Below, piece by piece: positions 5,107 through 22,433 of a stretch of 35,368 bases of DNA. Position numbers and translations under genes: made by a program. Position 1 is the stretch's first letter. Every line of letters begins with the position of its first letter. The notes under the pieces are model-generated. The model made no database searches and had not been told where the DNA came from. It saw nothing but the letters and a program-made list of their open reading frames with translations. Origin of the DNA: a virus; IMG/VR virus record IMGVR_UViG_3300020180_000065, positions 1 through 35,368 of that record. One strand, written 5' to 3'.

Positions 5107-5117
5107 GCAACGGCCGG

Positions 5118-5357: not shown

Positions 5358-5365
5358 AATAGAAA

Positions 5366-5397: not shown

Positions 5398-5445
5398 CAG
5401 GAGAACCGAACGAAGGACACCACCAGATTAAACCGGAGGTGACGT

Positions 5446-6039: not shown

Positions 6040-6096
6040 AAATACTTGAGCGCCGGAAAAGGCCCTAACAAACCGCATGACAGTTATCCGAGCGCT

Positions 6097-6118
6097 CTAA
6101 CGATTTTCCCAGGTCATG
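6097..6118 (+). promoter_or_regulatory. Start-associated sequence, copy 1
   Basis: CTAACG is followed by 13 bases (ATTTTCCCAGGTC) and then the ATG at 6116. The element is shared in position with five other late genes. No Shine-Dalgarno is present. The 76-base gap 6040-6115 holds no gene or clear promoter. Confidence 0.7.
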
Positions 6119-6517
6119 GCGTCGCACCCACCAATTGCCGAGCGGATTGAGATCATCGCCGACATGATGCGCCGTTGTGTGTATCAGCGTGGCAAGACGG
6201 ACAAGCATCTAGCACGTGAGTGGGGCCTGTCTCTAATCCAAGTGCAGGACGACACGTCTGAAGCGTCGCGTAGGGCGAAAGCGGAGATAGCGAACGAGAA
6301 CTACCTCGACGCAACTGTCGATTATCACTTGGAAAACGCGCTTATGATGGCAACGGAGAGCGGCGATCCGAGTGCAGTGGCGAAGGTCGCCGCTACCTGG
6401 GCGGCCGTGAAGCGAGCAGGGAATAAACACGTGGACTTTCATGGGGTTGCGCGGGCGAAGATTGAAGAGACGATCATCGAAGCGGCCGCGGCGTTGAAGG
6501 CGCGGGGCGAGCTATGA
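6116..6517 (+). CDS. Putative terminase small subunit
   Basis: This 133-residue protein has an N-terminal helix-turn-helix-like region (TDKHLAREWGLSLIQVQDDT) and a helical remainder (NYLDATVDYHLENALMMATE, DPSAVAKVAATWAAVKRAGN). The layout of a DNA-recognition module followed by an oligomerisation region, one gene cluster ahead of the large terminase, fits a small terminase that binds the packaging start site. The sequence itself is not a clear family match, so the call rests on layout and position. The gene starts at an ATG with the CTAACG element and no Shine-Dalgarno. Its stop overlaps the next start as ATGA. Confidence 0.6.
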   Translation: MASHPPIAERIEIIADMMRRCVYQRGKTDKHLAREWGLSLIQVQDDTSEASRRAKAEIANENYLDATVDYHLENALMMATESGDPSAVAKVAATWAAVKRAGNKHVDFHGVARAKIEETIIEAAAALKARGEL

Positions 6518-6903
6518 GCGATTCGGTCGGCGTCGGCGTGGCCGGGCCAGAGCACGAGCCGTTCGTTTTCGACGCATGGCGCATCGGAGCTCGCGAGTAT
6601 GCAAGGCGGACCGAACGACCATGGGATGCCGCGGCGCATAAGGAAGTGACGGAGGACGTGGTGCACACGGGAGTGATTCGGGTCGCGACGGTCAACGGCG
6701 TGTTCGCGGGGTTTATCGCTGCGCGCCCGAGCGATGGCCACGTCTACTACGTGTACGTCAAAAAACCGTTTCGTGGCTTTGGGATAGCGCGCAAACTGTA
6801 CGAGCACGTGAACCCGAAGCGCGAGCCGTGGACGACATTTTCGGGCGGCTTCGCGGTGAACGACGAGCTCCGCGACCGGTACCGCGTCCGGCTCCTGAGC
6901 TGA
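6514..6903 (+). CDS. GNAT-fold N-acetyltransferase-like protein
   Basis: This 129-residue protein begins in an ATGA overlap with the gene before. VIRVATVNGVFAGFIAARPS (54-73), then VYYVYVKKPFRGFGIARKLY (77-96), is the GNAT core: beta4, beta5 and the acetyl-CoA pyrophosphate loop R-G-x-G-I-A. The fold therefore predicts acyl transfer from acetyl-CoA to an amine. The substrate is unknown. Similar small GNAT proteins occur between terminase genes in other phages, and whether they modify a virion protein or a host target is not settled. The end (FAVNDELRDRYRVRLLS) is beta-rich and completes the domain. Confidence 0.8.
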   Translation: MSDSVGVGVAGPEHEPFVFDAWRIGAREYARRTERPWDAAAHKEVTEDVVHTGVIRVATVNGVFAGFIAARPSDGHVYYVYVKKPFRGFGIARKLYEHVNPKREPWTTFSGGFAVNDELRDRYRVRLLS

Positions 6904-6909
6904 TGTGAG

Positions 6910-6931
6910 CTAACGTCGGCGCCTGGGCGTG
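6910..6931 (+). promoter_or_regulatory. Start-associated sequence, copy 2
   Basis: CTAACG, then 13 bases (TCGGCGCCTGGGC), then GTG at 6929. The element decides the start of the next gene, because a second in-frame candidate (ATG 7004) would otherwise be chosen. Confidence 0.7.
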
Positions 6932-7330
6932 GAATACTCCGGCCCGCTCAAGCTTGTTTACTTTGCCAGCGCAGTTGCCTTCCCTCCGTCGCATCACGAG
7001 GCGATGACAGGCCCCGAGCGCGCTGCCGGATGGGACGTACCGTCGAGTGGCGATGGTCAAGATCCAACTCCGTTCGAGTTTTACCGGTTCAGCGACGGGA
7101 CGGTTCAGATCAAGCACAAGTCGACGGGCCTCTCGACGTTCGTCGAGCGCGCATCGGTCAAGTCTTGGACGCCTGCCATCCCGACGAAGCCCGAGCTGCA
7201 GTACGCCGAGGCCATCGACGCGCCGCTTCCGATGCCGACGGTTGCGGAAGCCATCACCGCAATCGAAACGCCCAAGGCCAAGGCTGTCACAAAGCGGGGT
7301 AACCGCGAGTTCGATGTCGACGACGATTGA
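6929..7330 (+). CDS. Hypothetical protein preceding the large terminase
   Basis: This 133-residue protein is not a recognised family. It has a beta-rich middle (PFEFYRFSDGTVQIKHKSTG) and an Ala/Pro/Thr-rich tail ending in REFDVDDD. The GTG start at 6929 is preferred because it sits exactly 13 bases after CTAACG, as five other starts do. ATG 7004 is the alternative. Its stop overlaps the TTG of the large terminase (TTGA), so the two are probably translationally coupled. A small packaging or head accessory role is possible but unproven. Confidence 0.6.
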   Translation: MEYSGPLKLVYFASAVAFPPSHHEAMTGPERAAGWDVPSSGDGQDPTPFEFYRFSDGTVQIKHKSTGLSTFVERASVKSWTPAIPTKPELQYAEAIDAPLPMPTVAEAITAIETPKAKAVTKRGNREFDVDDD

Positions 7331-8682
7331 ACCTCGCTTACCTCGAAGAGCTCTGCCGCGAGTTCGGCACGTCGACCGATGCGGGCACGCTCATCCAGTC
7401 CGCGTTCCCGCAGCAGCGAGCGTTTCTCGAGGATACGACGCGGTTCAAGACTGCCCTCTGCACGCGCAGAGCTGGCAAAAGCTACGGCGAGGGTCTCGCG
7501 CTCTTCACCGAGGCGCTCAAGCGGCCGGGCGTGTCGTGTTTGTACGTCTCGCTCACGCGGTTGTCGGCGAAGCGCATTATGTACAAGGACGTCCTTAAAG
7601 CGATCGACCGCGAGTTTCAGCTCGGGTCGCGTTTCAAAGAGACAGAGCTCGAGGTCACGCTGCCGAACGGCTCGGTGATTTACCTGCTTGGCGTCGACGC
7701 GAAGCCTGAGGAAGCGGAGAAGATTCTAGGCCAGAAGTTCGCCTGCGCGGTGGTCGACGAGTCGGCATCGATGCGTTTCGACCTGTCGCATCTCGTGCAC
7801 GCCATCTTGAGGCCTACGCTCGTGGACTACGGCGGATGGCTGGCGATGGTTGGCACGCCGGGCAACGTCAAAAACTACTTTCACGACGTCACAACGGGCG
7901 CCGTCCAGGGGTGGTCGCTGCACCGGTGGAGCGCCGCGGACAATCCGCACGTCGCTGCGCAATGGGAGCGTGAAATCTCCGAGTTGGTCATTGAAAACCC
8001 GCTCATCAAAGAGACGCCGCTCTTCAAACAGCACTACCTCGGCGAGTGGGCCATTGACCCGTCAATGCGCGTCTACCGGTACGAGCCGGAGCGCAACGAC
8101 GTCGTCGAGCCGCCGGTGTGCACGCGGTTTATCCTGGGCGTGGATTTGGGGTACACCGATGCGACCGCGCTTGTCGTATTGGGGTTCCGCGAGCGGGACA
8201 AGACCATCTACGTGCTCGAAGCAGAGAAGCGCTCGGGGCTCATCGTCTCGCAAGTGGCCGAGTGGGTTCGTCACGTCCAGGGCCGGTACGCGCTCGAACG
8301 CATCGTGGTCGATAACGCCAGCAAGCAAGCCGTCGAGGAGCTTGTGCAGCGTCACGCGCTACCCCTCGAAGCTGCTGAGAAGCGCGACAAAGCCGACGCG
8401 ATTGCGAACATGAACTCCGACTTGATCACGGGCCGTATCAAGACCGTGGCTGCTACCGCGCCGTTGCGGAAGGAATGGGAAGACCTGGTTTGGGATGACC
8501 GGCACTTCCACAAGGGCAAGCTGGTCGAGTCGTCGCAGTGCGAGAACCACCTAAGCGACGCGTGCCTGTATGCATGGCGGGCCGCAACGGCGTTCGCAGC
8601 GGACGAAACGGTGCCAGTGGCGCCGACCGAGCCTGAAGACGACGAGGAGAAGCCGAGGCGGAAGGCGTTTTGGGAGGGCTGA
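7327..8682 (+). CDS. terL: Terminase large subunit
   Basis: This 451-residue packaging motor and nuclease is complete. The N-terminal ATPase shows a deviant Walker A CTRRAGKSYG (45-54), Walker B AVVDES (141-146) and coupling motif GTPG (176-179). The RNase H-like nuclease has three expected acidic sites in GVDLGYTDAT (Asp 273), IVVDNA (Asp 329) and LSDACLYA (Asp 411). It pumps DNA through the portal into the prohead and cuts it. The start is TTG in a TTGA overlap. The acidic C-terminal tail (TEPEDDEEKPRRKAF) could contact the portal. Which packaging type it belongs to (cos, pac or direct repeats) cannot be told by eye. Confidence 0.95.
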   Translation: MNLAYLEELCREFGTSTDAGTLIQSAFPQQRAFLEDTTRFKTALCTRRAGKSYGEGLALFTEALKRPGVSCLYVSLTRLSAKRIMYKDVLKAIDREFQLGSRFKETELEVTLPNGSVIYLLGVDAKPEEAEKILGQKFACAVVDESASMRFDLSHLVHAILRPTLVDYGGWLAMVGTPGNVKNYFHDVTTGAVQGWSLHRWSAADNPHVAAQWEREISELVIENPLIKETPLFKQHYLGEWAIDPSMRVYRYEPERNDVVEPPVCTRFILGVDLGYTDATALVVLGFRERDKTIYVLEAEKRSGLIVSQVAEWVRHVQGRYALERIVVDNASKQAVEELVQRHALPLEAAEKRDKADAIANMNSDLITGRIKTVAATAPLRKEWEDLVWDDRHFHKGKLVESSQCENHLSDACLYAWRAATAFAADETVPVAPTEPEDDEEKPRRKAFWEG

Positions 8683-8688
8683 AACGTA

Positions 8689-8702
8689 CCGAATGCATTC
8701 GG
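8689..8702. other. Perfect 14-bp palindrome after terL
   Basis: CCGAATGCATTCGG starts 7 bases after the large terminase stop in an 80-base gap. It could be a protein-binding site or a short hairpin, since no U-run follows. Confidence 0.4.
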
Positions 8703-8743
8703 CAGATTTACGGAAGCACGTAGCCATGCATCGGACACGGTGA

Positions 8744-8765
8744 CTAACACCCGCCCCATGGCGTG
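8744..8765 (+). promoter_or_regulatory. Start-associated sequence, copy 3
   Basis: CTAACA, 13 bases (CCCGCCCCATGGC), then GTG at 8763. This is the only copy with A instead of G at the sixth position. CGCC and GGCG flank CCAT and could form a small hairpin touching the start codon. Confidence 0.65.
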
Positions 8766-8981
8766 GACCCAAGCACGGTAAAATCCCTCGCTCGCATCGC
8801 TCAACGGTACGGAATCACGCATCTCAAAGTCACTCCAGACGGCGGGATGACGATGGTTCGCGAGGCGGTGACATTGCCTAGCACGTTCGGCTCGCCTCCC
8901 GCGTTAGCCCGCCTGGCTGATAGCGACCGCCTCGAGACCGAAGACGGCTTTACCCCTGCATCGCTTTTGAGCGACGCATGA
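8763..8981 (+). CDS. Small hypothetical protein between terminase and portal
   Basis: This 72-residue protein begins at the GTG placed by the CTAACA element and ends in an ATGA overlap with the portal gene. The first half (VKSLARIAQRYGITHLKVTP) looks like a helix followed by a strand, and the rest is loop-rich. No family is recognised. Its coupling to the portal gene suggests a head-assembly accessory. Confidence 0.6.
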   Translation: MDPSTVKSLARIAQRYGITHLKVTPDGGMTMVREAVTLPSTFGSPPALARLADSDRLETEDGFTPASLLSDA

Positions 8982-10756
8982 GCTCGGCCGCCAAAGATTA
9001 CGAATGGCAAAAGGTCGACGAAAAGCAACTCGCGACGAGCGTATGGGGCGTCGCGAAGCGCATCGAAGCCAATCAAGCGTGGCGCCGTTCGCTCATGCTC
9101 CGCAACGCGCGGATGTATCAGAACCAAGCTATCAGCGGCTTTGGCTTTGGCGAGTACGGCAAGATGCTGGCTAGTCCGCAAAGCGACGCGCTGACGTTCA
9201 ACGGCGTTCGGTCCTGCGTCGATACTGCGGCCGCGCGTATCTCGAAAACGAAGCCCCGCCCACTATTTCTCACCGACGACGGCGACTGGAGCATGGAGCG
9301 TCGTGCAAAGGGTATGACCGCATACCTGGACGCGCTGTTCGACGCCTCCAAGAACTACCCCGCTATGCAGAGGCAGTTTCTCGACGCCGCGGTGTACGGT
9401 ATCGGCGCAAAACTTTGGTTCATTGAAGACAGCGAAGTGCGCCAAGAACGCATCGCGCCGAATGAGCTCCTTGTCGACGACGACGATGCTCGCAGAGGCG
9501 CACCGTGGCAGATGCACCGCGTTCGTCCGGTGCTCGCGGCCAAGCTCGTCGAGATGTTTCCGAAGCACGAAGTCGCCATACTCGCTTCGCAGCAACGGCC
9601 GAATGGTAGCGTATCGCCGTGGGTCACAACGCTTGAGAGCTGGCACGTATCGACGGCCAGCGAAGCGGAGAACGGTCGCCATTGCATCACCATCAAAGAC
9701 GCGGCGCTTCACTGCGAGGGCTGGGATTGGACGTGGCTTCCCGCGACGTTCTACCGCTGGGCGGACGATCTAGAGGGCTTTTGGGGAACGTCGCTCGTCG
9801 ACGAGCTCTACCCACTGCAGCTTGAGCTCAACCGCGTCCTTCGTGTTATTCAGCAATCGCAGCATTTCGCCTGCGTTCCGCGCGTCTTCATGGACGTCGG
9901 GACGCAAATCGCCCGCACGCTGTCGAACGAAATCGGCGAAGAAGTCCGCTACGTCGGCAAGCCGCCAACGGTTATGACTGCGCCCGCGCAGCCTTCGGAG
10001 ATTTACGCGCATGCGGAAAACATCTGGCAGAAGATGTTCTCCGTTTCGGGCATCTCTGCCATGTCCGCGTCGTCGCAGAAGCCGAGCGGTCTCGACAGCG
10101 GCGTCGCGCTTCGAGAGTACAAGGACACGGAGAGCGAGCGCTTCGCACTGAAGAGCCAACGCTACGAGGAACTCTCCGTAGCGGACGCGCGCATTGCGAT
10201 TGAACTGACGCGTTATCTCGCCAAGACAGACAAGGCGCCGAAGCTGCTCGCGTTGAACCACAACAGCGCGCGCGCGGTGGACTGGGGAACCGCGGACATC
10301 GAAGATTCGAAGTATCTGCTGCGCTGCTACCCGGTGAATTTCTTGCCCTCCCAGCCAGCTGGGAAGCTTCAATTTATCAAAGAGCTGCGCCAAGAGTTCC
10401 CGAACAAGTTCCCGGAAGAGCTTGCGATATCGCTGCTCGAGTATCCCGACCTGAAACAGTTCACGTCGATGGCGAGTGCGCCGGTCGATATGGTGAAGTT
10501 TCACCTTGAGATGATCATCGAACGCGGCCGCATGATTCGGCCGTCCAAGTTCGACAACCTCGAGCTCTGCAAAACGATGGGCCACCACGCGTTCCTTCGC
10601 GGCAGTGCTGACGGGATGCCTAAGGCCAAGCTTGACCTGCTCGTCGAATGGCTCGACCTCGTCGTCGAGGAAATCGAAGCGCAGATGCCTCCGCCACCAC
10701 CAGCTCCGATGCCAATGGGTCCACCCGGTCCCGAGATGCCTCCCATGGCGGCCTAA
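8978..10756 (+). CDS. Portal protein
   Basis: This 592-residue protein forms the dodecameric ring through which DNA enters and leaves the capsid. Support comes from its place directly after the terminase, its size, the long wing region (RFALKSQRYEELSVADARIA), the stem/crown-like helices (WADDLEGFWGTSLVDELYPL, QLELNRVLRVIQQSQH) and a proline/methionine-rich C-terminus (PPPPPAPMPMGPPGPEMP) typical of podovirus portals. The start is an ATGA overlap. The assignment is by layout and general resemblance, without a single diagnostic motif. Confidence 0.85.
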   Translation: MSSAAKDYEWQKVDEKQLATSVWGVAKRIEANQAWRRSLMLRNARMYQNQAISGFGFGEYGKMLASPQSDALTFNGVRSCVDTAAARISKTKPRPLFLTDDGDWSMERRAKGMTAYLDALFDASKNYPAMQRQFLDAAVYGIGAKLWFIEDSEVRQERIAPNELLVDDDDARRGAPWQMHRVRPVLAAKLVEMFPKHEVAILASQQRPNGSVSPWVTTLESWHVSTASEAENGRHCITIKDAALHCEGWDWTWLPATFYRWADDLEGFWGTSLVDELYPLQLELNRVLRVIQQSQHFACVPRVFMDVGTQIARTLSNEIGEEVRYVGKPPTVMTAPAQPSEIYAHAENIWQKMFSVSGISAMSASSQKPSGLDSGVALREYKDTESERFALKSQRYEELSVADARIAIELTRYLAKTDKAPKLLALNHNSARAVDWGTADIEDSKYLLRCYPVNFLPSQPAGKLQFIKELRQEFPNKFPEELAISLLEYPDLKQFTSMASAPVDMVKFHLEMIIERGRMIRPSKFDNLELCKTMGHHAFLRGSADGMPKAKLDLLVEWLDLVVEEIEAQMPPPPPAPMPMGPPGPEMPPMAA

Positions 10757-10774
10757 CGCGCGCGCCCGCGTATG
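10753..10774 (+). promoter_or_regulatory. Start-associated sequence, copy 4
   Basis: CTAACG, 13 bases (CGCGCGCCCGCGT), then ATG at 10772. The TAA in the motif is also the stop codon of the portal gene, and the same is true at 22412. Confidence 0.7.
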
Positions 10775-11584
10775 ACAGAGCCTGAGTCAAATGAAGCCGA
10801 AACACCCGTTGAGGCGCCCGTACCGGAAGCGCCTGCAGTTCCTGACGAAGACGTTCGCATCAGTCGCGGTCTCGCCGAGATTGCGCGCCGTGAGCGTTCG
10901 TCGCGCGAGCAGATGGCCGCGTTCGAAGCAGAGCGCGGAACGCTGACCGCAGCGAAGCAACGCGCTGAAGAATACGACGCGCTCCTGGCGCAAATCGAGA
11001 CGGACCCTTCGGCCGTGCTCTCGCTCCTCGAGAAGAAGGGCAAGACGTTCCAGCACCTCGTCGACCACGTGATTCAAAAGGACACGCCCGAAGCGAAGCT
11101 TGAGAATCTGCAGAAGGAATTCCGCGACTACAAGCAATCGCAAGACGACAAGATCACTGCAGCGCAAGCGAGCGCCACACAAGCGCAGCAAGAGCAAGCG
11201 ATTGCAGACTACACGAAGCAGCAACACGCGTTCGTCGAACAGAACGCCGACGACTACCCGCTGATCAACGCGATTGGCGGCCACAAGCTGCTCTATCAGC
11301 TCGCCGACGCACACTACAAAGAGACGGGTCAAATCCTCTCGCACAAGGACGCAGCTGACGCGCTCGAGAAGACCTATTTCGATAATCTTTCGAAGCTGAA
11401 AACGCACGACAAGGTAGCGGCCAAGCTTGGGTTCGTCGCAAGCAAAGAGAAGCTCAGTCAGACGACGCTGACCGCTGGCAAGACTTCTGGCGCCGCGCCA
11501 TCTGCCACATCCACACGAAAGGTGTGGACGGCCGACGAGGCGCGAGAAGCGGCGCTCGCGAAGATCAAGGGCCGGACGCCCTAA
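10772..11584 (+). CDS. Capsid scaffolding protein
   Basis: This 270-residue protein is acidic at its start (PESNEAETPVEAPVPEAPAV). It then has long coiled-coil helices (EIARRERSSREQMAAFEAER, KQRAEEYDALLAQIETDPSA, FRDYKQSQDDKITAAQASAT) and ends with a small basic segment (STRKVWTADEAREAALAKIK). This charge and coil pattern, between portal and capsid genes, is characteristic of scaffolds that guide shell assembly and leave or are degraded before DNA fills the head. No protease gene was seen nearby. The start is the ATG 13 bases after CTAACG. Confidence 0.85.
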   Translation: MTEPESNEAETPVEAPVPEAPAVPDEDVRISRGLAEIARRERSSREQMAAFEAERGTLTAAKQRAEEYDALLAQIETDPSAVLSLLEKKGKTFQHLVDHVIQKDTPEAKLENLQKEFRDYKQSQDDKITAAQASATQAQQEQAIADYTKQQHAFVEQNADDYPLINAIGGHKLLYQLADAHYKETGQILSHKDAADALEKTYFDNLSKLKTHDKVAAKLGFVASKEKLSQTTLTAGKTSGAAPSATSTRKVWTADEAREAALAKIKGRTP

Positions 11585-11602
11585 CGCCCGCGCCTCACTG
11601 AC
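11581..11602 (+). promoter_or_regulatory. Decayed start-associated sequence without a start codon
   Basis: CTAACG and the CGCGCC block are present, but the position where the start codon should be reads GAC. The next gene begins at 11695. It may be a relic left after insertion of about 94 bases in front of the capsid gene. Confidence 0.45.
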
Positions 11603-11666
11603 AGCGCAGAGCATCCCGCGAAGTCACACCGGCGCGAGAGCCAACACCGCCGACCCAACACGCACC

Positions 11667-11683
11667 GCGACCTCGAAGGTCGC
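11667..11683 (+). other. Hairpin in the capsid gene leader
   Basis: GCGACCT and AGGTCGC form a 7-bp stem around CGA, ending 11 bases before the capsid ATG. It may stabilise the mRNA or expose the start region. The 110-base gap 11585-11694 contains no gene. Confidence 0.5.
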
Positions 11684-11694
11684 CAGGGGTTCGC

Positions 11695-12918
11695 ATGGCT
11701 CTCACACTGACTTCGTTCGACGCATTTTTGAAGGATTACTACGAGAAACGCACGCCGGAGCAGCTCGTCTACAAGAACCGCCCGCTCCTCGCGCTTCTCA
11801 AGAAAAAAGAAAAATTCCCCGGACGCCGCATGCCGATTCCGGTGCTCACGAGCAACCCGCAATCGCGCTCGGCTGACTTTGCGACCACGCAAACGATTGC
11901 TGCGGCAACCTCGTCACGCGTCGACGCGTTCTATCTTACTCGCGTCAAGAACTACGGCACCGTCACGATCGACACCGAAGCCATGGAGGCATCGGGCGAC
12001 GACGAGGGCGCATGGCTCGAAGCGAAGACGACCGAGATTGACGGCATCCTCAACACGCTCGCAAATGACACCGCATACGACCTCTTCCGTGGTGGCTTCG
12101 GCGCGCGCGGTACAGTCGGGTCCGGTACGGCATCGCCCATCACGCTTAGCGTCATCAGCGACGTTCACGGCTGGGAAGTCGGCATGCAGTTCCGCGCTTC
12201 GTCCACGGAGTCGACCGCGGTACTTCGCGATGGCACCGGCACCGTAACGGCGGTTAATCGTCGTACGGGAGTCATCACGTTCAGCGGCACCATCACGGGT
12301 CTCGCTGTCAGTGACGTCCTCTTCCTCTCGGGCGACCGTCAAGACTCTGCAACACCTTCGCGCCTCAAGCTCACGGGCCTTGCTGGCTGGTGCCCCTCGA
12401 CGGCTCCGAGCGGTGGTGAAAGCTTCTACGGCCAAGACCGAAGCGTTGACTCGCGCCTCTACGGCAACTTCTACAACGGCTCTTCGGAGCCTATCGAGGA
12501 CGCTCTCATCGAAGCAGCGAACCGTCCGGCCGAGCTCGGTTTCGGTTTGACCCACTACATCGTGAGCTACCCGCAGTGGAGCAAGCTCACCAAGAACATT
12601 CACGACTCGCGGCGCTACATCGAGGTCAAGGAGAAGACGACGGAAATCGGTTTTCCCGGCTTCACCATTCAAGGCCCCATGGGTCCCATCACGGTTCTCG
12701 CCGACCAAAACTGTCAGCGAAATACCGCTTGGGGTCTCAACATGGAGTACTGCGCGCTCTACACGATCGGTAAGGCGATTCGACTCATCGAGAACGACGG
12801 CCAGTCGCTGCTTCGGCAGTCGAACGCCGACGGCGTGGAAGTTCGCGCGGGTCTCAAAGGCCAGTTCGGCTGCACGGCGCCCGCCTCACTCGTGCAAGTC
12901 ACGCTCGCGACGGTCTGA
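11695..12918 (+). CDS. Major capsid protein, HK97-fold type
   Basis: This 407-residue protein follows portal and scaffold. The start (FDAFLKDYYEKRTPEQLVYK then NRPLLALLKKKEKFPGRRMP) and the end (GADQ-like LADQNCQRNTAWGLNMEYCA, then LRQSNADGVEVRAGLKGQFG) are characteristic of podovirus HK97-fold capsids. Residues about 140-230 (ISDVHGWEVGMQFRASSTES, GTGTVTAVNRRTGVITFSGT) look like an inserted beta domain. There is no delta-domain protease signature, consistent with the separate scaffold. No clear Shine-Dalgarno lies before the ATG, although a leader hairpin does. Confidence 0.88.
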   Translation: MALTLTSFDAFLKDYYEKRTPEQLVYKNRPLLALLKKKEKFPGRRMPIPVLTSNPQSRSADFATTQTIAAATSSRVDAFYLTRVKNYGTVTIDTEAMEASGDDEGAWLEAKTTEIDGILNTLANDTAYDLFRGGFGARGTVGSGTASPITLSVISDVHGWEVGMQFRASSTESTAVLRDGTGTVTAVNRRTGVITFSGTITGLAVSDVLFLSGDRQDSATPSRLKLTGLAGWCPSTAPSGGESFYGQDRSVDSRLYGNFYNGSSEPIEDALIEAANRPAELGFGLTHYIVSYPQWSKLTKNIHDSRRYIEVKEKTTEIGFPGFTIQGPMGPITVLADQNCQRNTAWGLNMEYCALYTIGKAIRLIENDGQSLLRQSNADGVEVRAGLKGQFGCTAPASLVQVTLATV

Positions 12919-12919
12919 C

Positions 12920-13108
12920 ATGGACAAACCGTCTTTTGCCGTCGCGCTTCTGGGAAAGAAAAAGAGCGACGAAGAGGACGTGGACGAAGAGACGGACGAG
13001 CTCGGAGACGGGCTCGTTCTCTCTGCCAAGGCCGCGATGAAAGCTTTGAAGGCAGACGATGCCTCGGGTTTTGCGCAGGCGATGAAAGATTTCTTCGACC
13101 AGTGCTGA
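12920..13108 (+). CDS. Small acidic hypothetical protein
   Basis: This 62-residue protein starts one base after the capsid stop. A central acidic stretch (KSDEEDVDEETDELGDG) precedes a helix (LSAKAAMKALKADDASGFAQ) ending with FFDQC. Small acidic ORFs with this kind of tail occur after capsid genes in several phages, and their role is unclear. It may be a head accessory. The gene has no family match that I can name. Confidence 0.6.
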   Translation: MDKPSFAVALLGKKKSDEEDVDEETDELGDGLVLSAKAAMKALKADDASGFAQAMKDFFDQC

Positions 13109-13116
13109 GGTAACCC

Positions 13117-13779: not shown

Positions 13780-16700
13780 TGCCGCAGTGGCAAACCATCC
13801 CCATTCCGATCACTGGCGGTATCGATCTCGATTCCGATCCACTTCTTTCCCCGCGTCCGCAAGCGCTTACGAATGTGCACTATGACCGTATCGGCTCGCT
13901 GACGAAGCGCGTCGGTACGACGTGCATCACGGGAACGAGCGTCACACCAAACCAACGCATCGGTGGGGCACGACCGCCTGATGCGAGCGGGAATTGCCCG
14001 ACGCCGGAGACGCTTTGCACGTACAAGGGCCGGCTGCTGCGCATCGGTAACGGCGAGCTCGACGCGCTTGGCGACCCCTCGTCGTCGACGCCATGGTCGT
14101 TTCGTGACTACGTCTCAGAGTGCGTTATCGACACGCGCACCATTGCGGCTGCAACACGTGGCGCCGCAAGCGGCTATGGGGTTCACGCTTCGTCCGCGGT
14201 GATTGGCAACGTCCGCATGACCGTGTGGAACAACGCGAACCTCGAGCTGCAGTACTCGCTCGAGCGCCTCGACACGGGCGCCGTCATCGGTACGGGCATC
14301 GTGAGCGGCAGCGGCGGGACGGCAAATCTCGTCATCTCCTGCAAAGTCGTCGCAGACCCGACGAATAACTTATTCGGCATCTTCTTTGGAGCGCTGACGA
14401 ACGCGTTGGCTGTCACCGGCATCCGCATGACCACGTGCCATGCGCTGACGCTCGCGTTCGGGACGACGACGACTCTGGCGCTAGGGACACTCGCATTCAC
14501 GGCGTTCGATGTTGACCTGAACGTCGCGAACCAGTGGGTCGTCGTTTACGAGCTCGCGGCTGGCGCAAACCGCATCCAAGTCCGAACGGTCAACGCGTCG
14601 TACACGCTCGGTACAGCTACGACGCTTGGCGCAGCACATACAAACATCACAAACTTTTCGATCCGCGTCACCAGCGCACGCGTGTGGCTCGTCTACAACC
14701 ACACCGATGGCGGCGCCACGCTCACGAGCCGTGGCTGGACGCTCACCGTTCCGCTGGTTGCGCTCGTGGGGCCAGTTTCGCTCGGGTCTGCACCCTATGT
14801 CACGTCCGGCCCGAACCGCATCGCGATTCAAGAGCTCGCGAGCGGCAGCGCGTACTTCGCGGCCACGTACAACGGCACGACGTCGTTCGCTCAGCTCACC
14901 ACATCCCTCGTCGCGTCTGGCACCATCGCGTACTCGTATTTGAACGTTGTTTCGCGACCTTTCGAGGACCTGACCGCAGGGCGCGTCTACTGCTGGACGC
15001 ACAACGTTCACTCGATTCAAGGCTCGTACTTCCTTCTCGACATGGGCAACGGGCTCGCAGCCACAACGCCCACGAAACAACATCGCATCGTTGCGATTGC
15101 AGGACCTGGAAAGCTCGCGACGCCCAACGCCGACCGGTACTCGGTCAACTGGCAAATCGTTGGTGACGTCGTCGCTACGTCGCGTGCGTACACGCTGCCG
15201 GTGCTTTTCAACCTCTCGAGCGAGGTAAACTTCACTATCAAAGACAGCCAAATTGCGCTGGTTACCGCCGACTTCGCGGATATCAAGCGCCACACTGTTG
15301 AGACTCCCGACCATCTGCTTTTCAGCGGCGGGCTCATGCAGGCTTTCGACGGCTCGACGGTGTTCGAGCTTGGGTTCGCGTATCCGCCTGATATGGCCGT
15401 GCCGATCGCATTCACGCAAGCCGCTACGGGCTCGCTCACTTTACTGAGCACGTACGGAATTCGATTCACGTACGCGTGGACGGACGCGCAAGGTAACCGT
15501 CACCGCTCCGCTCCGTCAGTCGCTAGGTCGACGCTACTCACGGGCGCGAACAACCGCATCCAAGGCACCGCGCCCACGCTGCAGATTACGAACAAGTACA
15601 ACGGTAACGACGAGCTTTTAAGCGACGTCGTCGTCGAAGTGTGGCGTACCGCCGCGAACGGCGCGACGTACTATCTCGACAGCGTCGTCGCGAACAATCG
15701 CGGCATTCCAACCGTCACTTTCGACGCGACGCAATCGGACGTGCTTCTGACGGCGCGCGAGATCTTGTACACGACTGGCGGCGAGCTCGACAACATCATC
15801 CCCTCCGGCCCTCGCGCGATCGCCTACCACCAGAACGCCATCGTACTCGCGGGCGAAGACGGAACGATTTGGTTCTCGAAGCCGTTCGTTAAAGGCGATG
15901 GCTACGGCTTCAACGAAGCGATTACGCTCGACCCGTTCGAAGGCGGATCACCCGTCGCGTTTGGTTCGCTCGGCGAGCTGCTCGCGGTATTCAAGTCCAC
16001 CGCGACGTACGTGTTCGCGGGGCAGCTTCCGGCCGCAAACGGCGCTTCGTCGCTCTCACTGCCGCAATATGTCCAGTCCGATAGCGGGTGCGTCGACCCG
16101 CGCTCCGTCGTGTCATGGGGCGAGGGCATCGGCTTCATGTCAGGCGCCGAGGTGCAGCTGCTTACGCGCTCGCTCCAGATTGCGCCTATCGGCCACCGCA
16201 TCCTGCCACTCATCGGGGAGGGTGCCGGCATCACATCAGCGGTTCTCATCCCGCACTCGAATCAGATTCGTCTGACCGGAACGTCCACCGTAGCGTTCGA
16301 CTACGATTACCGCTCTGGCAACGCGGGCGACCCGTGCTGGACGACGGGCACGTATTACAACGGGGCTGGCACGGGCACGGCGCAAACCATCCCAAGTGCG
16401 TGCCTCTACCAAGGGCTTTGGACGCGCATTCAAACCGACGGCCGCGTGTTTCAAGAGGTCCTTACAGATTTTTGGGACAGGCAAGGCTCGACAAAAGACT
16501 GGGTTCCGATCGGCGTGACGCTTCCGATTTTGGCGATGGCATCGCTCGCAGGTTACGGCCGCATGCGGAGCGTAGGATTTGTCGGTACCGCGTCCGCGTG
16601 CAACGTGATCCTTACTGTGACGAAGGATGGCGGAGCCTACCTTGCGACTACGAACGCAACGCTGGCGTGTTCAGCGTTCGCGTCGAAGCGCGTGCATCTT

Positions 16701-16859
16701 GCGTCGCAAAAAGGCCAGTTTTTCAGTGTCGTGATTGCCGATGCGTCGACTGGCGCCGCGGACAACGGCGCGGGTCTGACGCTGCGAAGCATCGCGAGCG
16801 AAGTCGCAGTGGATGGGAAACTCGCACGGCAGCTTCGGACTTCAGACAAAAACGCGTGA
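13779..16859 (+). CDS. Tail nozzle / stabilisation protein
   Basis: This 1026-residue, almost entirely beta-stranded protein starts at the ATG overlapping the adaptor stop. Its beginning (PITGGIDLDSDPLLSPRPQA then LTNVHYDRIGSLTKRVGTT) and the later IWFSKPFVKGDGYGFNEAIT and FGSLGELLAVFKSTATYVFA are typical of podovirus nozzle proteins (tail tube B or P22 gp10-like beta-propellers). These begin with a G-x-D segment and report gene start-like RPG/KR repeats. It should form the hexameric tip of the tail that contacts fibres and closes the DNA channel. It is longer than many relatives, with Thr/Ala/Gly-rich beta repeats at about 150-400 that may be an inserted domain. Confidence 0.82.
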   Translation: MPQWQTIPIPITGGIDLDSDPLLSPRPQALTNVHYDRIGSLTKRVGTTCITGTSVTPNQRIGGARPPDASGNCPTPETLCTYKGRLLRIGNGELDALGDPSSSTPWSFRDYVSECVIDTRTIAAATRGAASGYGVHASSAVIGNVRMTVWNNANLELQYSLERLDTGAVIGTGIVSGSGGTANLVISCKVVADPTNNLFGIFFGALTNALAVTGIRMTTCHALTLAFGTTTTLALGTLAFTAFDVDLNVANQWVVVYELAAGANRIQVRTVNASYTLGTATTLGAAHTNITNFSIRVTSARVWLVYNHTDGGATLTSRGWTLTVPLVALVGPVSLGSAPYVTSGPNRIAIQELASGSAYFAATYNGTTSFAQLTTSLVASGTIAYSYLNVVSRPFEDLTAGRVYCWTHNVHSIQGSYFLLDMGNGLAATTPTKQHRIVAIAGPGKLATPNADRYSVNWQIVGDVVATSRAYTLPVLFNLSSEVNFTIKDSQIALVTADFADIKRHTVETPDHLLFSGGLMQAFDGSTVFELGFAYPPDMAVPIAFTQAATGSLTLLSTYGIRFTYAWTDAQGNRHRSAPSVARSTLLTGANNRIQGTAPTLQITNKYNGNDELLSDVVVEVWRTAANGATYYLDSVVANNRGIPTVTFDATQSDVLLTAREILYTTGGELDNIIPSGPRAIAYHQNAIVLAGEDGTIWFSKPFVKGDGYGFNEAITLDPFEGGSPVAFGSLGELLAVFKSTATYVFAGQLPAANGASSLSLPQYVQSDSGCVDPRSVVSWGEGIGFMSGAEVQLLTRSLQIAPIGHRILPLIGEGAGITSAVLIPHSNQIRLTGTSTVAFDYDYRSGNAGDPCWTTGTYYNGAGTGTAQTIPSACLYQGLWTRIQTDGRVFQEVLTDFWDRQGSTKDWVPIGVTLPILAMASLAGYGRMRSVGFVGTASACNVILTVTKDGGAYLATTNATLACSAFASKRVHLASQKGQFFSVVIADASTGAADNGAGLTLRSIASEVAVDGKLARQLRTSDKNA

Positions 16860-16872
16860 GGAGGAAAATATC

Positions 16873-18144
16873 ATGGGACTCACGAAACTTGGACCGGACG
16901 GGCGACCCTCACTCAGTGACGAGTGGACGACGAAAACAGCGTCGGATAACCGCGGTTATAACAACCGCGTCAACGAAGAAATCGGCCAAGGCCAGACGCA
17001 ATGGCAGGTTGATAACAATCGTGGGCAACTAGGCCGCGGACTTGCGACTGGCGGCGACCCCTACCTGCAAAGCGTGCTTGGCCAAGCGGAGGCGGTCGGC
17101 GCCGCATCGGGCGACGCCGGTTACCACGGCATCAAAGAGGGCGCGTTCCAAGGCATGGCGCAAGACGCGCAAGGCCGCGGCGCTAACTTCGCGGACTACG
17201 GCCAAGCGGATCAGTCGCGTGACCTCGGGATGCAAGCTCGCGGTTCGCTTGTCGACGCCTTGAGTCTGCAGCGAAATGCAGCGATGGGCCTTGGCCCAAG
17301 CGCCGCGCAGTCACAGCTTCAGATGGGCACCGACGCAGCCGCACGCCAAGCGATGGCGCAAGCCGCATCGGCACGAGGCGGCATGGCACGAGCCGGTGCG
17401 CAACGCATGGGAGCGATGCAAGCGGGCGACGCAACGCAGAATGCAGCGGCCGGTGCGGCTTCGTTGCGTGCGCAGGAAATGAACCAGGCGATGGGGCAAT
17501 ACGGGCAATTCTCTGATGCGCTTCGTGGCCGTGATTTGCAAGCGCAGGGCATGGACGCGGCGCAGTCGCAGTTCCAAGCGCAGCAAGCGCAAGGCGCTCG
17601 CAACGCGAACGATCAGATGTCGCTCGGGTTGCAAGGCATGGGTCAAAAAGCGTCGCTCGCGCAGCAGATGGCGGACTTGCAAAAGCAGCAGAATTTCCAA
17701 TCCAACTTCCATCAGTCCCAAACGCACAAGAACGCTACGGACGCTGCCGCCGCGGGCGCCTCGCAAGGCGAAGGTGCGAGCAAGACGAACACCGCGATGG
17801 GCGTCGCGAGCACGATTCTGTCCATGGCTCCCATGCTGTTCGCGGCATCGGATGAGCGTCTGAAGACCAACGTTGAAGACGGCTCAAAGGACGTTCGCTC
17901 GTTCCTCGATGCGATCGGAACGCACAAATACGACTACAAGAACGACGCGTACGGCGAGCCCGGAAAGCACGTGTCCGTCATGGCGCAGGAGCTCGAGAAA
18001 ACCGAGCTTGGAAAACGCGCGGTCATCGACACGCCGATTGGAAAAGTTGTGAACTACGGGAAACTTTTGCCAACAACGGTCGCTGCGCAAGCGGACTTGC
18101 ACAAGCGCCTGAAGGCTCTCGAGCACAAGCTTTTTGCTGCGTAA
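16873..18144 (+). CDS. Virion protein with C-terminal S74 (intramolecular chaperone) domain
   Basis: This 423-residue protein starts at the ATG after GAGGAGGAAAATATC, the best ribosome site in the late operon. Residues 1-320 are Gln/Ala/Gly/Met-rich and helical (SAAQSQLQMGTDAAARQAMA, DAAQSQFQAQQAQGARNAND), as in ejection or internal virion proteins. From about 326 the sequence SDERLKTNVE, then HKYDYKN, then GKHVSVMAQELEKTELGKRA and VVNYGKLLPTTVAAQADLHK is a peptidase S74 domain. The Ser of SDERLK is where such domains cut themselves off. S74 domains normally end tailspikes and fibres, where they trimerise the chain, so joining one to a helical ejection-like body is unusual. Confidence 0.82.
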   Translation: MGLTKLGPDGRPSLSDEWTTKTASDNRGYNNRVNEEIGQGQTQWQVDNNRGQLGRGLATGGDPYLQSVLGQAEAVGAASGDAGYHGIKEGAFQGMAQDAQGRGANFADYGQADQSRDLGMQARGSLVDALSLQRNAAMGLGPSAAQSQLQMGTDAAARQAMAQAASARGGMARAGAQRMGAMQAGDATQNAAAGAASLRAQEMNQAMGQYGQFSDALRGRDLQAQGMDAAQSQFQAQQAQGARNANDQMSLGLQGMGQKASLAQQMADLQKQQNFQSNFHQSQTHKNATDAAAAGASQGEGASKTNTAMGVASTILSMAPMLFAASDERLKTNVEDGSKDVRSFLDAIGTHKYDYKNDAYGEPGKHVSVMAQELEKTELGKRAVIDTPIGKVVNYGKLLPTTVAAQADLHKRLKALEHKLFAA

Positions 18145-18152
18145 TTAGCCAG

Positions 18153-18174
18153 CTAACGGCCGCGCCCGTGCATG
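18153..18174 (+). promoter_or_regulatory. Start-associated sequence, copy 5
   Basis: CTAACG, 13 bases (GCCGCGCCCGTGC), then ATG at 18172. The motif lies in the short gap after the S74 gene and is separate from its stop codon. Confidence 0.7.
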
Positions 18175-20004
18175 GGCGTACTCTCTCCTGCCGACGCGGC
18201 CGCACTCCAAGCTAAGGGGCTAATTAACCCGCAGACAGCGGCGCAGTTTGGGCCCGCAGCGACACCAACAGCATCATCGGCGCCTGGGCTTCCGGCAAGT
18301 CAGTACGCGGGCATTGACTCCCGTGATTACGGCAAACTGAATGCGACAATCCCACAAGCGGGCCTCGCAGATGGCCTCGGGCGTCTTCTGGGCGTTGGCG
18401 AAACGGAAGGGTTTCAAAATAACGTTGCCAAGTACGAGGCCACGCAACGAGCTCTTAAGGAGCAGAACGCGAATACAGGCGCCGCTATCGATGCAGGCGC
18501 ACGCGACAATCCTTCGTTCGGCGTTCTTGCGACGCCCGATGGTCGCTCGCCCATCAACCCGAATAAAGCTGCTGACATCGACAAGGCCTCTCGCGCTGGA
18601 ACGCCGTTGCCTAGCAGCGTCGCAGGTTCGGCGCCTCTGCACCTGGCATCGGAGCCGGAGCCGGAGCTGCGGGTTGGCGGTGGGCCCGGTGGTAGTGGCG
18701 GCGGCAAACCGATGCAGGACCCACGTCTCGCCGGTCTCGAGCGCGACAAGCAACTTGGCGAGCAAGAAATTCGCAACATCGGCCAGCAACGCGTCAACGC
18801 GCAGGACGCCGCAGACGCAGAGTTCCAGTCGCGCGAGGCGTACCAAACGCGCATGCAGGCGAACGATTTCGCCGCGCAGCAAAAGCGCGACGCGGAAGCC
18901 GCCAGCATCGACAAGCAAGTCGGCACCATCAAAGGCGCGGTCGACGACTACAAAAACTCGAAGGTCGACGGCGCGAAGTATTGGAAAGACGCCGGAGTGC
19001 TCGGAAGCATTCTCGGCGTTCTTGGTGCGGCCATTGGCGGCGGCCTCGCAGCTCGCACGGGCGGTCCAAACCAGGCGCTCGCGTTTATGGAGCGCCAGAT
19101 TGACAAAAATATCCGCCAGCAAGAATCCGCCATCGACCGCAAGGGCAAGAACGCCGAAATGCAGCGGTCGCTACTCGGTGACATGCGCAACGTCACGCAG
19201 TCGAACGAGGCAGCTCGCCAAGCGGCGCGGCAAAAGATCTACGGTGACATGATCGACAACCTCGAGACGATGAAAGCCAAGAACAAGGGTCCCGAAGCGC
19301 AGGCGAAAGCCGATGCGATGATTGGCGACATCCAAGCGAAGATGAGCGCAGCGCAGACGGGCGTGCAGACGACGCTAATGAAAGAACATCAGGCGCGAGC
19401 AGCAGCCGGCGCGGCGCAACAGTACGCGCATCACCGCGACGATGTGAAAGACCAGCAAACCACCGCAGAGATACGCATCAAAGCGACGGAAGCAGGCGCA
19501 AAAGCGAACGAGAACGGCGGCGGTTCCGTTCCGGTGTTTGGCCAAGATGGGCAGCCGATGCGCGATGCATCAGGCGCCGTCGTCACGACCAGGGCGCTTT
19601 CCAAGGACGACGCCATCAAGCTCAAAGACTCCGGCGAAGCGTATGCGGACATGAAGCAGGGCCTCGAGCGCCTCAAGAATCTCCGCACTGAGTTCGGTCA
19701 CGAGACGTTCAACACGCAGGGCGCGGAGTCGATGAAGTCTGTTGCTGCTGGCTTGCGCCTGCGACTCAAAGACCTTCAAAAGCTCGGCGCTCTCAGTGGT
19801 TCAGACTACGACATGCTCGACTCGCAAATCCCCAAAGACCCAAGCTCAAACTGGACGGACGGGTCGGTTATCAACACGCTGAATGAGGTGGGCCGTCGCG
19901 TTGACGCTTCGTACCAAAACTCGCTCGATCAGCGCACGAAGGGCGCGCCGAATGTGACGCAAAACCGGCAGTCGCAAAACCTCGGCTTCACCGGAAAGAA
20001 GTAA
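18172..20004 (+). CDS. Internal virion / DNA ejection protein
   Basis: This 610-residue protein has a Pro/Ala/Ser-rich start, then long charged helices rich in Ala, Gln and Lys (EIRNIGQQRVNAQDAADAEF, MQANDFAAQQKRDAEAASID). A short hydrophobic glycine zipper follows at about 280-297 (VLGSILGVLGAAIGGGLAAR), with further helices after it. The length, helical character and one membrane-insertion-like segment suggest one of the proteins that podoviruses store in the head and eject to form a channel across the envelope. No enzymatic motif was seen. It starts at the ATG 13 bases after CTAACG and its stop overlaps the next start (TAATG). Confidence 0.7.
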   Translation: MGVLSPADAAALQAKGLINPQTAAQFGPAATPTASSAPGLPASQYAGIDSRDYGKLNATIPQAGLADGLGRLLGVGETEGFQNNVAKYEATQRALKEQNANTGAAIDAGARDNPSFGVLATPDGRSPINPNKAADIDKASRAGTPLPSSVAGSAPLHLASEPEPELRVGGGPGGSGGGKPMQDPRLAGLERDKQLGEQEIRNIGQQRVNAQDAADAEFQSREAYQTRMQANDFAAQQKRDAEAASIDKQVGTIKGAVDDYKNSKVDGAKYWKDAGVLGSILGVLGAAIGGGLAARTGGPNQALAFMERQIDKNIRQQESAIDRKGKNAEMQRSLLGDMRNVTQSNEAARQAARQKIYGDMIDNLETMKAKNKGPEAQAKADAMIGDIQAKMSAAQTGVQTTLMKEHQARAAAGAAQQYAHHRDDVKDQQTTAEIRIKATEAGAKANENGGGSVPVFGQDGQPMRDASGAVVTTRALSKDDAIKLKDSGEAYADMKQGLERLKNLRTEFGHETFNTQGAESMKSVAAGLRLRLKDLQKLGALSGSDYDMLDSQIPKDPSSNWTDGSVINTLNEVGRRVDASYQNSLDQRTKGAPNVTQNRQSQNLGFTGKK

Positions 20005-22415
20005 TGGCGCTTCCGGCCGCCACCTCGGCAGACGCCATCCTGAACGGCACGGGCGTTACCAGCGACGCGCTCACTGGCATCATGGCCGGAGCTCCCGCGG
20101 CCGCGCCTGGTGTTGCTCCGCTCACGATGCCCGTAGCCACCCCAGGCGTAGCGGGCCCCGCTACTCCGCCCATTCTGAGCGGCAAGACCATCTCCGTGAT
20201 CAATCCCGATGGCAAACCGGGCGAGGTGCCTGAGGAGAATATCCAGCGCGCTCTCCAGCTCGGCTACACGCTCGATACGCCTGAGAACGCAGCAGTGCGT
20301 GAGTACGTCGACGAGCGCAAAGGCCTGTCGGGAGCCGCTCAAGTCGCGCTCACGTCGTTCGCGAACCAGGCGCTTTTTGGCGTCCCGGAAATTATCCAAA
20401 ACAAAACCGGCTCGTCGCTCGAGGTCGCAAAACGCGAAGCGCTCGCAAAAGAACACGAATTTGCACAAGGTGTCGGTGGAGTTTCCGGATTCGGCGCATC
20501 GCTATTCGTAGGCGGGCCACTCTTCAAGGCTGGAGCAAAGGCCGGCGCTCTCGCCGAGCAAGCTGTTACACGTGGCCTTGCGGGTCGCCTCGCAGCGGAA
20601 GGTGTCGGCGACGTAGCGGCGCAGTCCCTCGCTCGTACGCTCGTTCAGAAGACAGCCGCGAGCGCCGCCAAGATGGGCGTGGAAGGTGCCACGGTCGCAG
20701 CGCCTCAGGCCATCACGGAAGCCGCGCTAGGCGACCCGGAGCAAGCCGCAGAGGCGCTCCTGTTCGGAGCCGGAGCAGGCGCAGCACTGGGCGTGGTGGG
20801 TGGTGGAGCAAAGGAACTTTTCTCCCGCGCCGTAAAGAAAGCTGGCGGCGCAGGTATCGCGCTCGAGAAGTACGCCGACGAGCAAGCGCTGAAATCGCTC
20901 GACCCGCTGAAGAAGATTTCCGATCGCCTTTCTGAGATTCCCGAAGCTGGCCGCACGCTCCGAGAGCTTGGCCTTACACGGCAAGTGAACGAAGATTTTG
21001 CAAACCTCGCGACGCGCGCGAAGTCCGCGAAAGGCGATGTCGGCGGCCGCATCGATGAGATTTACGGCGAGGTAAAAACGGGATTTAGCGGCGAGGCCAT
21101 GACGGAGAAACTCCGAAATGACATCCTGACGCCGCTCGCGGACAAGGTTGGTTACGCAGGCCACGCGAAGAAGGTCAGTGCGTACATCGATGACTTTGCT
21201 GACAAATACGGCGCTCGTGAAGTGAACGCGCAGGAGCTCGTGCAGGTTCGTCGAGACCTCGATGGGCTCATCTACGGCGAGCGTATGCCCGGCCCCGAGC
21301 AGATCGACAAGCAGTACAAGGCTGCGCGCGACATCTTCAAGGACGTTCTCGATTCGCGCGTGGAATCGGAACTCGGCGCCGAGAAACTGAGCGAGCTCAA
21401 GAAACTAAACAATCAATTTCGCGTTGCAGTGCTCGTCGACAAGGCGGCCGAACAGAACGTAGGCCGCGCCATCTCGAACCGCACGAACAGCCTCACGGAT
21501 TACATGCTCGGCGGCGCGCAGAGCGTTACCGGGGCAACCGTAGGCGGCGCGCTCGGCGGCCCCATTGGCGGACTCGTAGGCGGTGGTGTCAGCCAGCTCG
21601 TCGGCATGATGGGCAACAAATACCTGCGCTCGAATTACAACTCGATCGCCTCGTCGGCGGCTGAGAAGCTCGGGCTTTTATTCACCGAACAGACGATGCG
21701 AAAGGCCGCTCTCGAAGCGGACCGCATTCCTTCCGTGCTCGAGTCGCTTGCATCGCAGAAAACCTTCGTGAGCGGCGCTCGTAGCTCCCCCGACGGCCAT
21801 CTCGAAGCCATCTTCGGCACCAAAGAATACCAGGCGATCGCCGACAAGCTTTCGGCTGCGATGGCGAATCCCGAGTCGTTCGCAACGGAAGTGGGCAAAG
21901 TCTCCGCGGGCATCGCGGATGGTGGCGCGCCAGGTATCGCTAAGGCCTATACGCAAAAGCAAATCGACGCGCTGCAGTACCTGCATGATGCGCTACCGAA
22001 GCCGTCAGCGCCGCGCGATGCGTTTGCCAAAGCAGCACCATGGGCGCCGACCAAGAGCGAATGGGCGGACTTCTCAAGGCGTGCAGAGACCGTCTTGAAC
22101 CCCTACGTGGTATTTGACCGAATCGCAGATGGGACGCTCTCGCGGGCGCATCTCGAGTCGCTCGAGCGCGTCTACCCCAAGCTTCTAGAAGACGTCCAAA
22201 AGCGCATTGTTGAAGAATCCGCCCGGAAGAATCCTCCCGTGCTCGACTACGCCCAGCGCGCATCGATTCGGCTGCTCATGGGCGACGTTGCAAAGCCGCA
22301 AAATTGGCAGGCGACGTTCTCCGCTGGGCCCTCGGCTGCCGCACCTCGCGGTGGCAAAACCAGCAAAACTACAGGGCCTTTTGCGGCCACGGATATCCAG
22401 AGGATCACCGGCTAA
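20004..22415 (+). CDS. Large internal virion / ejection protein
   Basis: This 803-residue protein follows the other ejection protein with a one-base overlap. It has a low-complexity Ala/Pro N-terminus, several glycine-rich hydrophobic stretches (GGVSGFGASLFVGGPLFKAG, EALLFGAGAGAALGVVGGGA, ATVGGALGGPIGGLVGGGVS) and long charged helices between them. The repeated amphipathic or hydrophobic blocks are what a membrane-penetrating ejection protein needs. No lytic transglycosylase motif was found, in contrast with T7 gp16. It ends GPFAATDIQRITG, and its stop codon is part of the next CTAACG element. Confidence 0.7.
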   Translation: MALPAATSADAILNGTGVTSDALTGIMAGAPAAAPGVAPLTMPVATPGVAGPATPPILSGKTISVINPDGKPGEVPEENIQRALQLGYTLDTPENAAVREYVDERKGLSGAAQVALTSFANQALFGVPEIIQNKTGSSLEVAKREALAKEHEFAQGVGGVSGFGASLFVGGPLFKAGAKAGALAEQAVTRGLAGRLAAEGVGDVAAQSLARTLVQKTAASAAKMGVEGATVAAPQAITEAALGDPEQAAEALLFGAGAGAALGVVGGGAKELFSRAVKKAGGAGIALEKYADEQALKSLDPLKKISDRLSEIPEAGRTLRELGLTRQVNEDFANLATRAKSAKGDVGGRIDEIYGEVKTGFSGEAMTEKLRNDILTPLADKVGYAGHAKKVSAYIDDFADKYGAREVNAQELVQVRRDLDGLIYGERMPGPEQIDKQYKAARDIFKDVLDSRVESELGAEKLSELKKLNNQFRVAVLVDKAAEQNVGRAISNRTNSLTDYMLGGAQSVTGATVGGALGGPIGGLVGGGVSQLVGMMGNKYLRSNYNSIASSAAEKLGLLFTEQTMRKAALEADRIPSVLESLASQKTFVSGARSSPDGHLEAIFGTKEYQAIADKLSAAMANPESFATEVGKVSAGIADGGAPGIAKAYTQKQIDALQYLHDALPKPSAPRDAFAKAAPWAPTKSEWADFSRRAETVLNPYVVFDRIADGTLSRAHLESLERVYPKLLEDVQKRIVEESARKNPPVLDYAQRASIRLLMGDVAKPQNWQATFSAGPSAAAPRGGKTSKTTGPFAATDIQRITG

Positions 22416-22433
22416 CGCGCCCGCCAGGGCATG
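22412..22433 (+). promoter_or_regulatory. Start-associated sequence, copy 6
   Basis: CTAACG, 13 bases (CGCCCGCCAGGGC), then ATG at 22431. GCCC and GGGC around GCCA give the clearest small hairpin of the set. Confidence 0.7.

Follow-up and report, generated by a model that had tools for sequence, protein, structure and literature searches.

Leaderless mRNA starts initiate without a Shine-Dalgarno sequence (SD), and examples of phage translational operators in which a hairpin forms at the start codon are the MS2 replicase operator and the RegA and gp32 systems of T4. T4 has been reviewed in PMC3014915. Start-associated sequences (SAS/ESAS) have been described in cluster K mycobacteriophages; their consensus, GGGATAGGAGCCC, includes the SD core AGGAG, and they are found 3-7 bp upstream of starts in the non-structural genome half (PMC3203893; PMC12699233). 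Each genome carries 11-19 copies of this short asymmetric repeat, almost all in one orientation just before starts, with a preference for genes that have an upstream gap, an occasional overlap with the previous stop codon, and nearby inverted repeats at about half of the copies; the function is unproven, and translation is suspected (PMC3203893; PMC12699233). Essentially only the cluster K work was found in the literature on other start-associated sequences. Here we describe CTAACR-N13-RTG, an element at late gene starts of a phage known only from environmental DNA, IMG/VR virus record IMGVR_UViG_3300020180_000065; the whole analyzed stretch (positions 1-35,368) is referred to below as the window.

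The window element shares with the cluster K sequences a single orientation (6/6 on the plus strand), a constant distance to the start codon, a location at genes with an upstream gap (6/6), and the overlap with stop codons. In contrast to them, it precedes late structural and packaging genes, contains neither AGGAG nor any SD-like 4-mer, and has its AACR block 13 nt from the start instead of 3-7 bp; no window copy matches GGGATAGGAGCCC with two or fewer mismatches, and the two show no sequence similarity. By this comparison, the element resembles a start-associated sequence in position and pattern but is not a member of the cluster K family. An earlier note on this DNA, made from the letters alone, had drawn the cluster K analogy, which holds for position and pattern only.

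Copies of the Element and Their Distance to Start Codons

Six exact copies of CTAACR-N13-RTG were found in the window, all on the plus strand and each at a real gene start (Table 1). The motif comprises 22 bases including the start codon, and its consensus is CTAACR-N6-CC-N5-RTG. The adenine variant CTAACA occurs in one copy only (8744), whereas the CC pair at spacer positions 7-8 is present in 7/7 copies, a start-less one at 11581 included. No conservation extends into the flanks, and the copies themselves are short, with a degenerate spacer. The coordinates, the CC pair, the single CTAACA and the seventh, start-less copy had all been listed in the earlier note. Its statement that two of the six copies incorporate the previous stop codon is correct for 10753 and 22412 and has to be extended to the start-less copy, so that three copies (10753, 11581, and 22412) contain the stop codon of the upstream gene.

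The simplest alternative is that six copies with fixed spacing arose by coincidence in a GC-rich genome. The hexamer CTAACG itself is not enriched (8 occurrences vs. approximately 12 expected), as coincidence would have it. The association with starts is another matter: shuffles of the whole window gave on average 0.3-0.6 copies of CTAACR-N13-RTG and a maximum of 2-3, compared with the six observed. A permutation test corrected for the look-elsewhere effect, in which any hexamer with one two-fold position was allowed at any offset from 24 gene starts, returned a maximum of 6 for the window, and this maximum was exactly CTAACR at distance 13; the shuffles had a mean of 2.4 and a maximum of 4, and 0/200 reached six. 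Furthermore, 22 starts were available to the six copies, and the chance that only free-standing ones, of which there are seven, would be marked is about 1e-4. With a fixed-distance association beyond every permutation and all six copies on free starts, coincidence is extremely improbable.

Position at the Heads of Coupled Blocks in Place of Shine-Dalgarno Sequences

The late genes (6116-26716) overlap, by ATGA, TAATG and similar junctions, or abut, with the exception of seven starts that follow gaps of 15-110 nt. The element is found at six of these seven free-standing late starts (gaps of 15-80 nt), and the start-less copy precedes the seventh, that of the major capsid gene. It therefore stands at the heads of the translationally coupled blocks, and every late block except the capsid block is headed by it.

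None of the six element starts has an SD-like 4-mer or, 5-10 nt upstream, complementarity to the 16S rRNA 3' end. Their duplex energies with the anti-SD range from +1.9 to -1.7 kcal/mol, as compared with a median of -2.2 at random positions of the same genome, which bears out the absence of an SD reported in the earlier note. The same phage has genes, at 2580 and 5446, with duplex energies of -12.2 and -10.8 kcal/mol, and its capsid gene (11695), 110 nt downstream of the start-less motif copy, shows SD-like pairing of -6.0. In relatives found via the terminase, plausible starts having an SD-like 4-mer were found for the portal (62/71), scaffold (25/29), capsid (54/55), and adaptor (28/35) genes, counts that are generous, as the script chose among nearby starts; of these four genes, only the scaffold gene bears the element in the window. 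At its six starts, the element stands in place of the usual SD ribosome-binding site.

Table 1. Copies of the CTAACR-N13-RTG element and other features of the window.
Feature	Position	Strand	Sequence	Gene start	Remarks
Copy 1	6097-6118	+	CTAACG-ATTTTCCCAGGTC-ATG	6116	Gene 6116-6517, first of a coupled block, overlapped by the gene at 6514
Copy 2	6910-6931	+	CTAACG-TCGGCGCCTGGGC-GTG	6929	Gene 6929-7330, block with terminase 7327-8682
Copy 3	8744-8765	+	CTAACA-CCCGCCCCATGGC-GTG	8763	Gene 8763-8981, block with portal 8978-10756
Copy 4	10753-10774	+	CTAACG-CGCGCGCCCGCGT-ATG	10772	Probable scaffold gene 10772-11584; TAA of the motif is the portal stop codon
Copy 5	18153-18174	+	CTAACG-GCCGCGCCCGTGC-ATG	18172	Gene 18172-20004, block with 20004-22415
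Copy 6	22412-22433	+	CTAACG-CGCCCGCCAGGGC-ATG	22431	Gene 22431-22808, block to 26716; TAA of the motif ends the previous gene
Copy 7, start-less	11581-11599	+	CTAACG-CCCGCGCCTCACT		TAA is the scaffold gene stop codon; precedes major capsid gene 11695-12918
Late gene run	6116-26716	+			Free-standing starts only at 6116, 6929, 8763, 10772, 11695, 18172, 22431
Candidate factor protein	5446-6039				Just before the first copy; helix-turn-helix-like middle, possible ribbon-helix-helix-like C-terminus; weak Pfam matches only
Terminase large subunit	7327-8682	+
Portal	8978-10756	+
Probable scaffold	10772-11584	+			Assigned by position
Major capsid gene	11695-12918	+
Internal virion and DNA-ejection-like proteins	13767-18144	+
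Lysozyme	26132-26716	+
Helicase and VapE-type primase-helicase	Left end of the window

A Second Element in the Nearest Relative

The nearest relative, IMGVR_UViG_3300005617_000450 (hereafter L007; a contig of 20,614 bases, 64% GC), has 55, 41, and 48% identity to the window in the terminase, portal, and capsid, respectively; the scans omit records very close to the window, so that nearer relatives may exist. L007 has four copies of the sequence GRAACR-NN-GGTGC, all of them on the plus strand (3371, 5710, 12453, and 18690), as against a mean of 0.035 and a maximum of 2 in shuffles. Each copy precedes a free late start (3394, 5730, 12475, and 18719, respectively). The fifth free start with an element, at 490, has GAAACA-N13-ATG. 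Free starts lacking the element in L007 are those of the capsid gene and of the gene at 8348, which has GAGGTG, and the element start at 18719 also scores as SD-like through a GAGG within its hairpin. One rule thus describes both phages: wherever a late start is free, it carries the element or else an SD, and the capsid gene is excepted from the element in both. Neither the block-head rule nor the cognate element of L007 was seen in the earlier note, and the L007 element, described here, was not found in the literature examined.

The genes concerned partly correspond. Those at 5730 and 18719 in L007 are homologous to those at 10772 and 22431 in the window; the gene at 3394 has the same place as that at 8763 and resembles it by eye, and the gene at 490 has the same place as that at 6116 without detectable similarity. 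No counterpart in the window was found for the gene at 12475. A second gene resembling that at 22431 (by eye) starts at 19075 in L007, an overlapping start that replaces that of the open reading frame (ORF) first listed at 19335.

Like its window counterpart, the L007 element is located at free, mostly SD-less late starts, has AACR 13-14 nt before the start in 3/5 cases, and carries C and then a pyrimidine at spacer positions 7-8. It differs in its sequence (GRAACR-NN-GGTGC instead of CTAACR-N6-CC), in a looser start distance, and in a strong covarying hairpin. At each copy of GRAACR-NN-GGTGC, the GGTGC arm pairs with GCACC or TCACC, and the inner pairs (CAT/ATG, TCT/AGA, CCAT/ATGG, and TTC/GAG) vary between copies but stay complementary; in shuffling tests, p<5e-4 was obtained for the strength of the hairpin and p<5e-5 for the inner pairing. 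With its variable loop length and covarying inner arms, the L007 element is better explained by a hairpin in RNA than by a dyad in DNA. The start codon is located in the 3' arm of the hairpin (3394 and 12475), in its loop (5730), or just past it (18719).

Such sequestration of the start codon fits an operator or a factor-dependent switch. As in known phage translational operators, the L007 start codon is part of, or adjacent to, a hairpin, here one common to several genes, as expected for a protein-gated start. Unlike those operators, the window copies have no significant hairpin, and the sequence occurs at many late genes and not at one or few.

Hairpins at gene junctions also bear on another possibility, namely that the element is an RNA processing site or a 5' stabilizer, at which a nuclease would cut the polycistronic late mRNA to give short defined leaders that set stability and initiation. 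This reading accounts for the junction position and for the L007 hairpins; on its own, it explains neither the fixed 13-nt spacing nor the use of SD-less starts, no nuclease candidate is at hand, and we regard it as improbable.

An alignment at AACR of the 12 copies of both phages (7 from the window, 5 from L007) shows that all have C at spacer position 7, pyrimidines at positions 5 and 8, and G or C at position 6. With a matrix derived from the window copies, the five L007 sites rank 11, 114, 191, 192, and 444 among 41,200 positions.

The gene blocks are syntenic between the window and L007 and have not been reshuffled. This is not what would be expected of linkers for recombination between gene modules, a role listed in the earlier note and taken here to exclude any function in expression. 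Linkers would be found at gene boundaries, as the element is, and its sequence is nearly repeated along the genome; nevertheless, the unconserved flanks, the shortness and degenerate spacer of the copies, and a spacing locked to the start codon make this role very unlikely.

The capsid genes of the two phages share CCTCGAAGGT just before the start (11675-11694 in the window, 6866-6887 in L007), with hairpins upstream in both, and the capsid gene seems to have its own conserved SD-type leader. The portal-scaffold gap of L007 contains a 28-nt inverted repeat (5485-5512 and 5672-5699, 159 nt apart, 96% complementary), alongside which are repeated GGGCTCCTGAA-like units.

Distribution of the Motif

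As a repeated start motif, CTAACR-N13-RTG is absent from the approximately 84 related loci, in which two or fewer copies per locus were found, mostly in low-GC contigs and without pattern. Most relatives without the motif use SDs instead. Relatives of this kind had been named in the earlier note as evidence that would count against the motif; they exist as far as CTAACR itself is concerned, but they use SDs, and the nearest of them has a diverged element. A strict pattern scan of viral contigs gave a single match, an isolated copy in L001, a contig without detectable protein similarity to the window, so that the motif is not widespread. Scans with the portal or the capsid as single proteins yielded no relatives.

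De novo hexamer-distance scans in the relatives returned mostly weak matches and a very strong one (L079), which by its appearance looks like a tandem repeat. The search for AACR with a hairpin across all relatives gave many chance matches and was uninformative. In a second GC-rich relative (G006/L081), SDs are present at several late genes and no clear element was found; a single AACA-N13-ATG at 14498 may be due to chance or to an SD (AGGTG). In a remote capsid relative (L097, 30%), gene starts appear by eye to be SD-less and often to follow hairpins, for example before 3430 and 5850. No match to Rfam 15 was obtained in the window at the gathering threshold.

Possible Mechanism

In view of the element's place at the heads of coupled blocks, its substitution for SDs, its constant distance from the start codon, and the covarying hairpin of the relative, we favor an RNA-level start element, and consider it reasonably probable that it is a cis-acting, SD-independent translation-start signal or translational operator in the mRNA. 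SD-independent initiation and an RNA-protein switch had both been put forward in the earlier note, and they gain support from the SD-free starts, the SDs of the relatives, the block heads, and the L007 element with its covarying hairpin. The element is probably a new variety of translation-start signal.

Overlapping or abutting block members could be translated by coupling from the first gene. At that gene, AACR and the G+C-rich stretch after it, which forms a hairpin in L007 and at most a weak one in the window, would most likely be recognized with the distance to the start codon held constant; the ribosome could do this itself, or an RNA-binding protein of the phage or the host. Such recognition may bring in 30S subunits or, in the manner of a translational operator, control their access, and the output of the blocks would in this way be coordinated. 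That the element acts in translation rather than transcription is an inference, and a trans-acting factor is putative in both its existence and its identity. A more specific proposal, which we advance tentatively, is that of a phage-lineage-specific SD-independent signal (AACR-N6-CY at a constant distance, the hairpin being optional) that is served by a dedicated factor, replaces the SD at nearly every late block head, and has diverged in sequence between the two phages at like starts.

The strongest rival is a phage-specific late promoter for each block, with the 22 bases spanning both promoter and start site and the resulting leaderless mRNA needing no SD. Block heads are natural promoter sites, the conserved sequence is contiguous, and SDs are absent at the element starts. 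Moreover, the late run has no ordinary sigma-70-like promoter: a search for -35/-10 boxes with 16-18 nt spacing in 4600-24500 gave a single match (4709-4737) and none in the late run or at the element, in line with the earlier opinion that a -35/-10 promoter is unlikely. SD-free initiation is common to the element and to leaderless starts, but the latter would not be expected to have a conserved block 14-19 nt upstream unless this block is a promoter. On the other hand, three copies overlap the stop codon of the upstream gene, the ORFs searched include no long one like a T7-type RNA polymerase, and the 16 and 23 nt spacing in two L007 copies, together with the covarying hairpins there, fits RNA better. 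A promoter is therefore the less likely explanation, albeit the most serious of the competitors.

Several points weigh against a translation-start signal. A promoter giving leaderless mRNA would likewise be expected at block heads and would likewise need no SD. The distance from AACR to the start varies in L007 (13, 14, 14, 16, and 23 nt). The window copies have no significant common hairpin; the small stems near them, whose differing registers the earlier note had recognized, are not significant as a set (p 0.05-0.09, shuffling). Taken by itself, the broad consensus AACR-N3-SYSCY shows no excess in either genome, and only its tie to starts stands out. Finally, the test of the L007 element followed its discovery by eye, and the elements are present in two genomes only, for which reason common descent of the window and L007 elements, suggested by the aligned sequences, is likely but unproven.

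As for what might recognize the element, the 3' end of 16S rRNA carries GUUGG, and pairing of CTAAC with it was considered and set aside: the geometry is wrong, and GAAAC of L007 would not pair. At least eight relatives conserve the protein encoded at 5446-6039 upstream of their terminase; the AlphaFold model of this protein is of moderate confidence only. As a dedicated factor it is not specific, having homologues in the motif-less L043, L062, L004, L050, L061, L035, and L010.

If a translation-start signal is the correct reading, a group of uncultivated tailed phages has swapped the SD for a start signal of its own at block heads, and the coupled inner genes need none. The element would then offer a handle on how late-gene output is set and a way to annotate SD-less starts in related phages. 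It would also provide a test case for the replacement of start signals in evolution, as most relatives keep SDs at comparable genes, and would extend start-associated sequences from cluster K, where the SD is inside, to a case without an SD.

Gene Assignments and Other Repeats

The named genes of the window fit a podovirus-like phage. Gene starts were partly assigned by eye, and the contigs are incomplete; the start calls at 6929, 8763, 10772, and 22431 are backed by homologous or similarly placed L007 proteins, the short ones having been compared by eye. The gene layout is less certain at 24250-24864, where the short ORFs start by overlap.

Three further repeats were observed toward the right end of the window. 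A perfect 47-nt direct repeat (34999-35045 and 35322-35368), the second copy of which is the end of the record, surrounds a TCG-type tandem repeat (35081-35306) and could be either genuine or an end effect of the assembly. A 39-nt inverted repeat (31697-31735 and 32276-32314, 82% complementary) with several GAAACGTTTGCAA-like units flanks a minus-strand ORF and looks like an operator region. The sequence TGCATCTTGCA, on the minus strand, is located just before or at the starts of minus-strand ORFs 32284-32565, 33393-33770, and 34936-35301 (at about 32560-32600, 33760, and 35300) and is a possible second start- or promoter-associated repeat, on the early strand.

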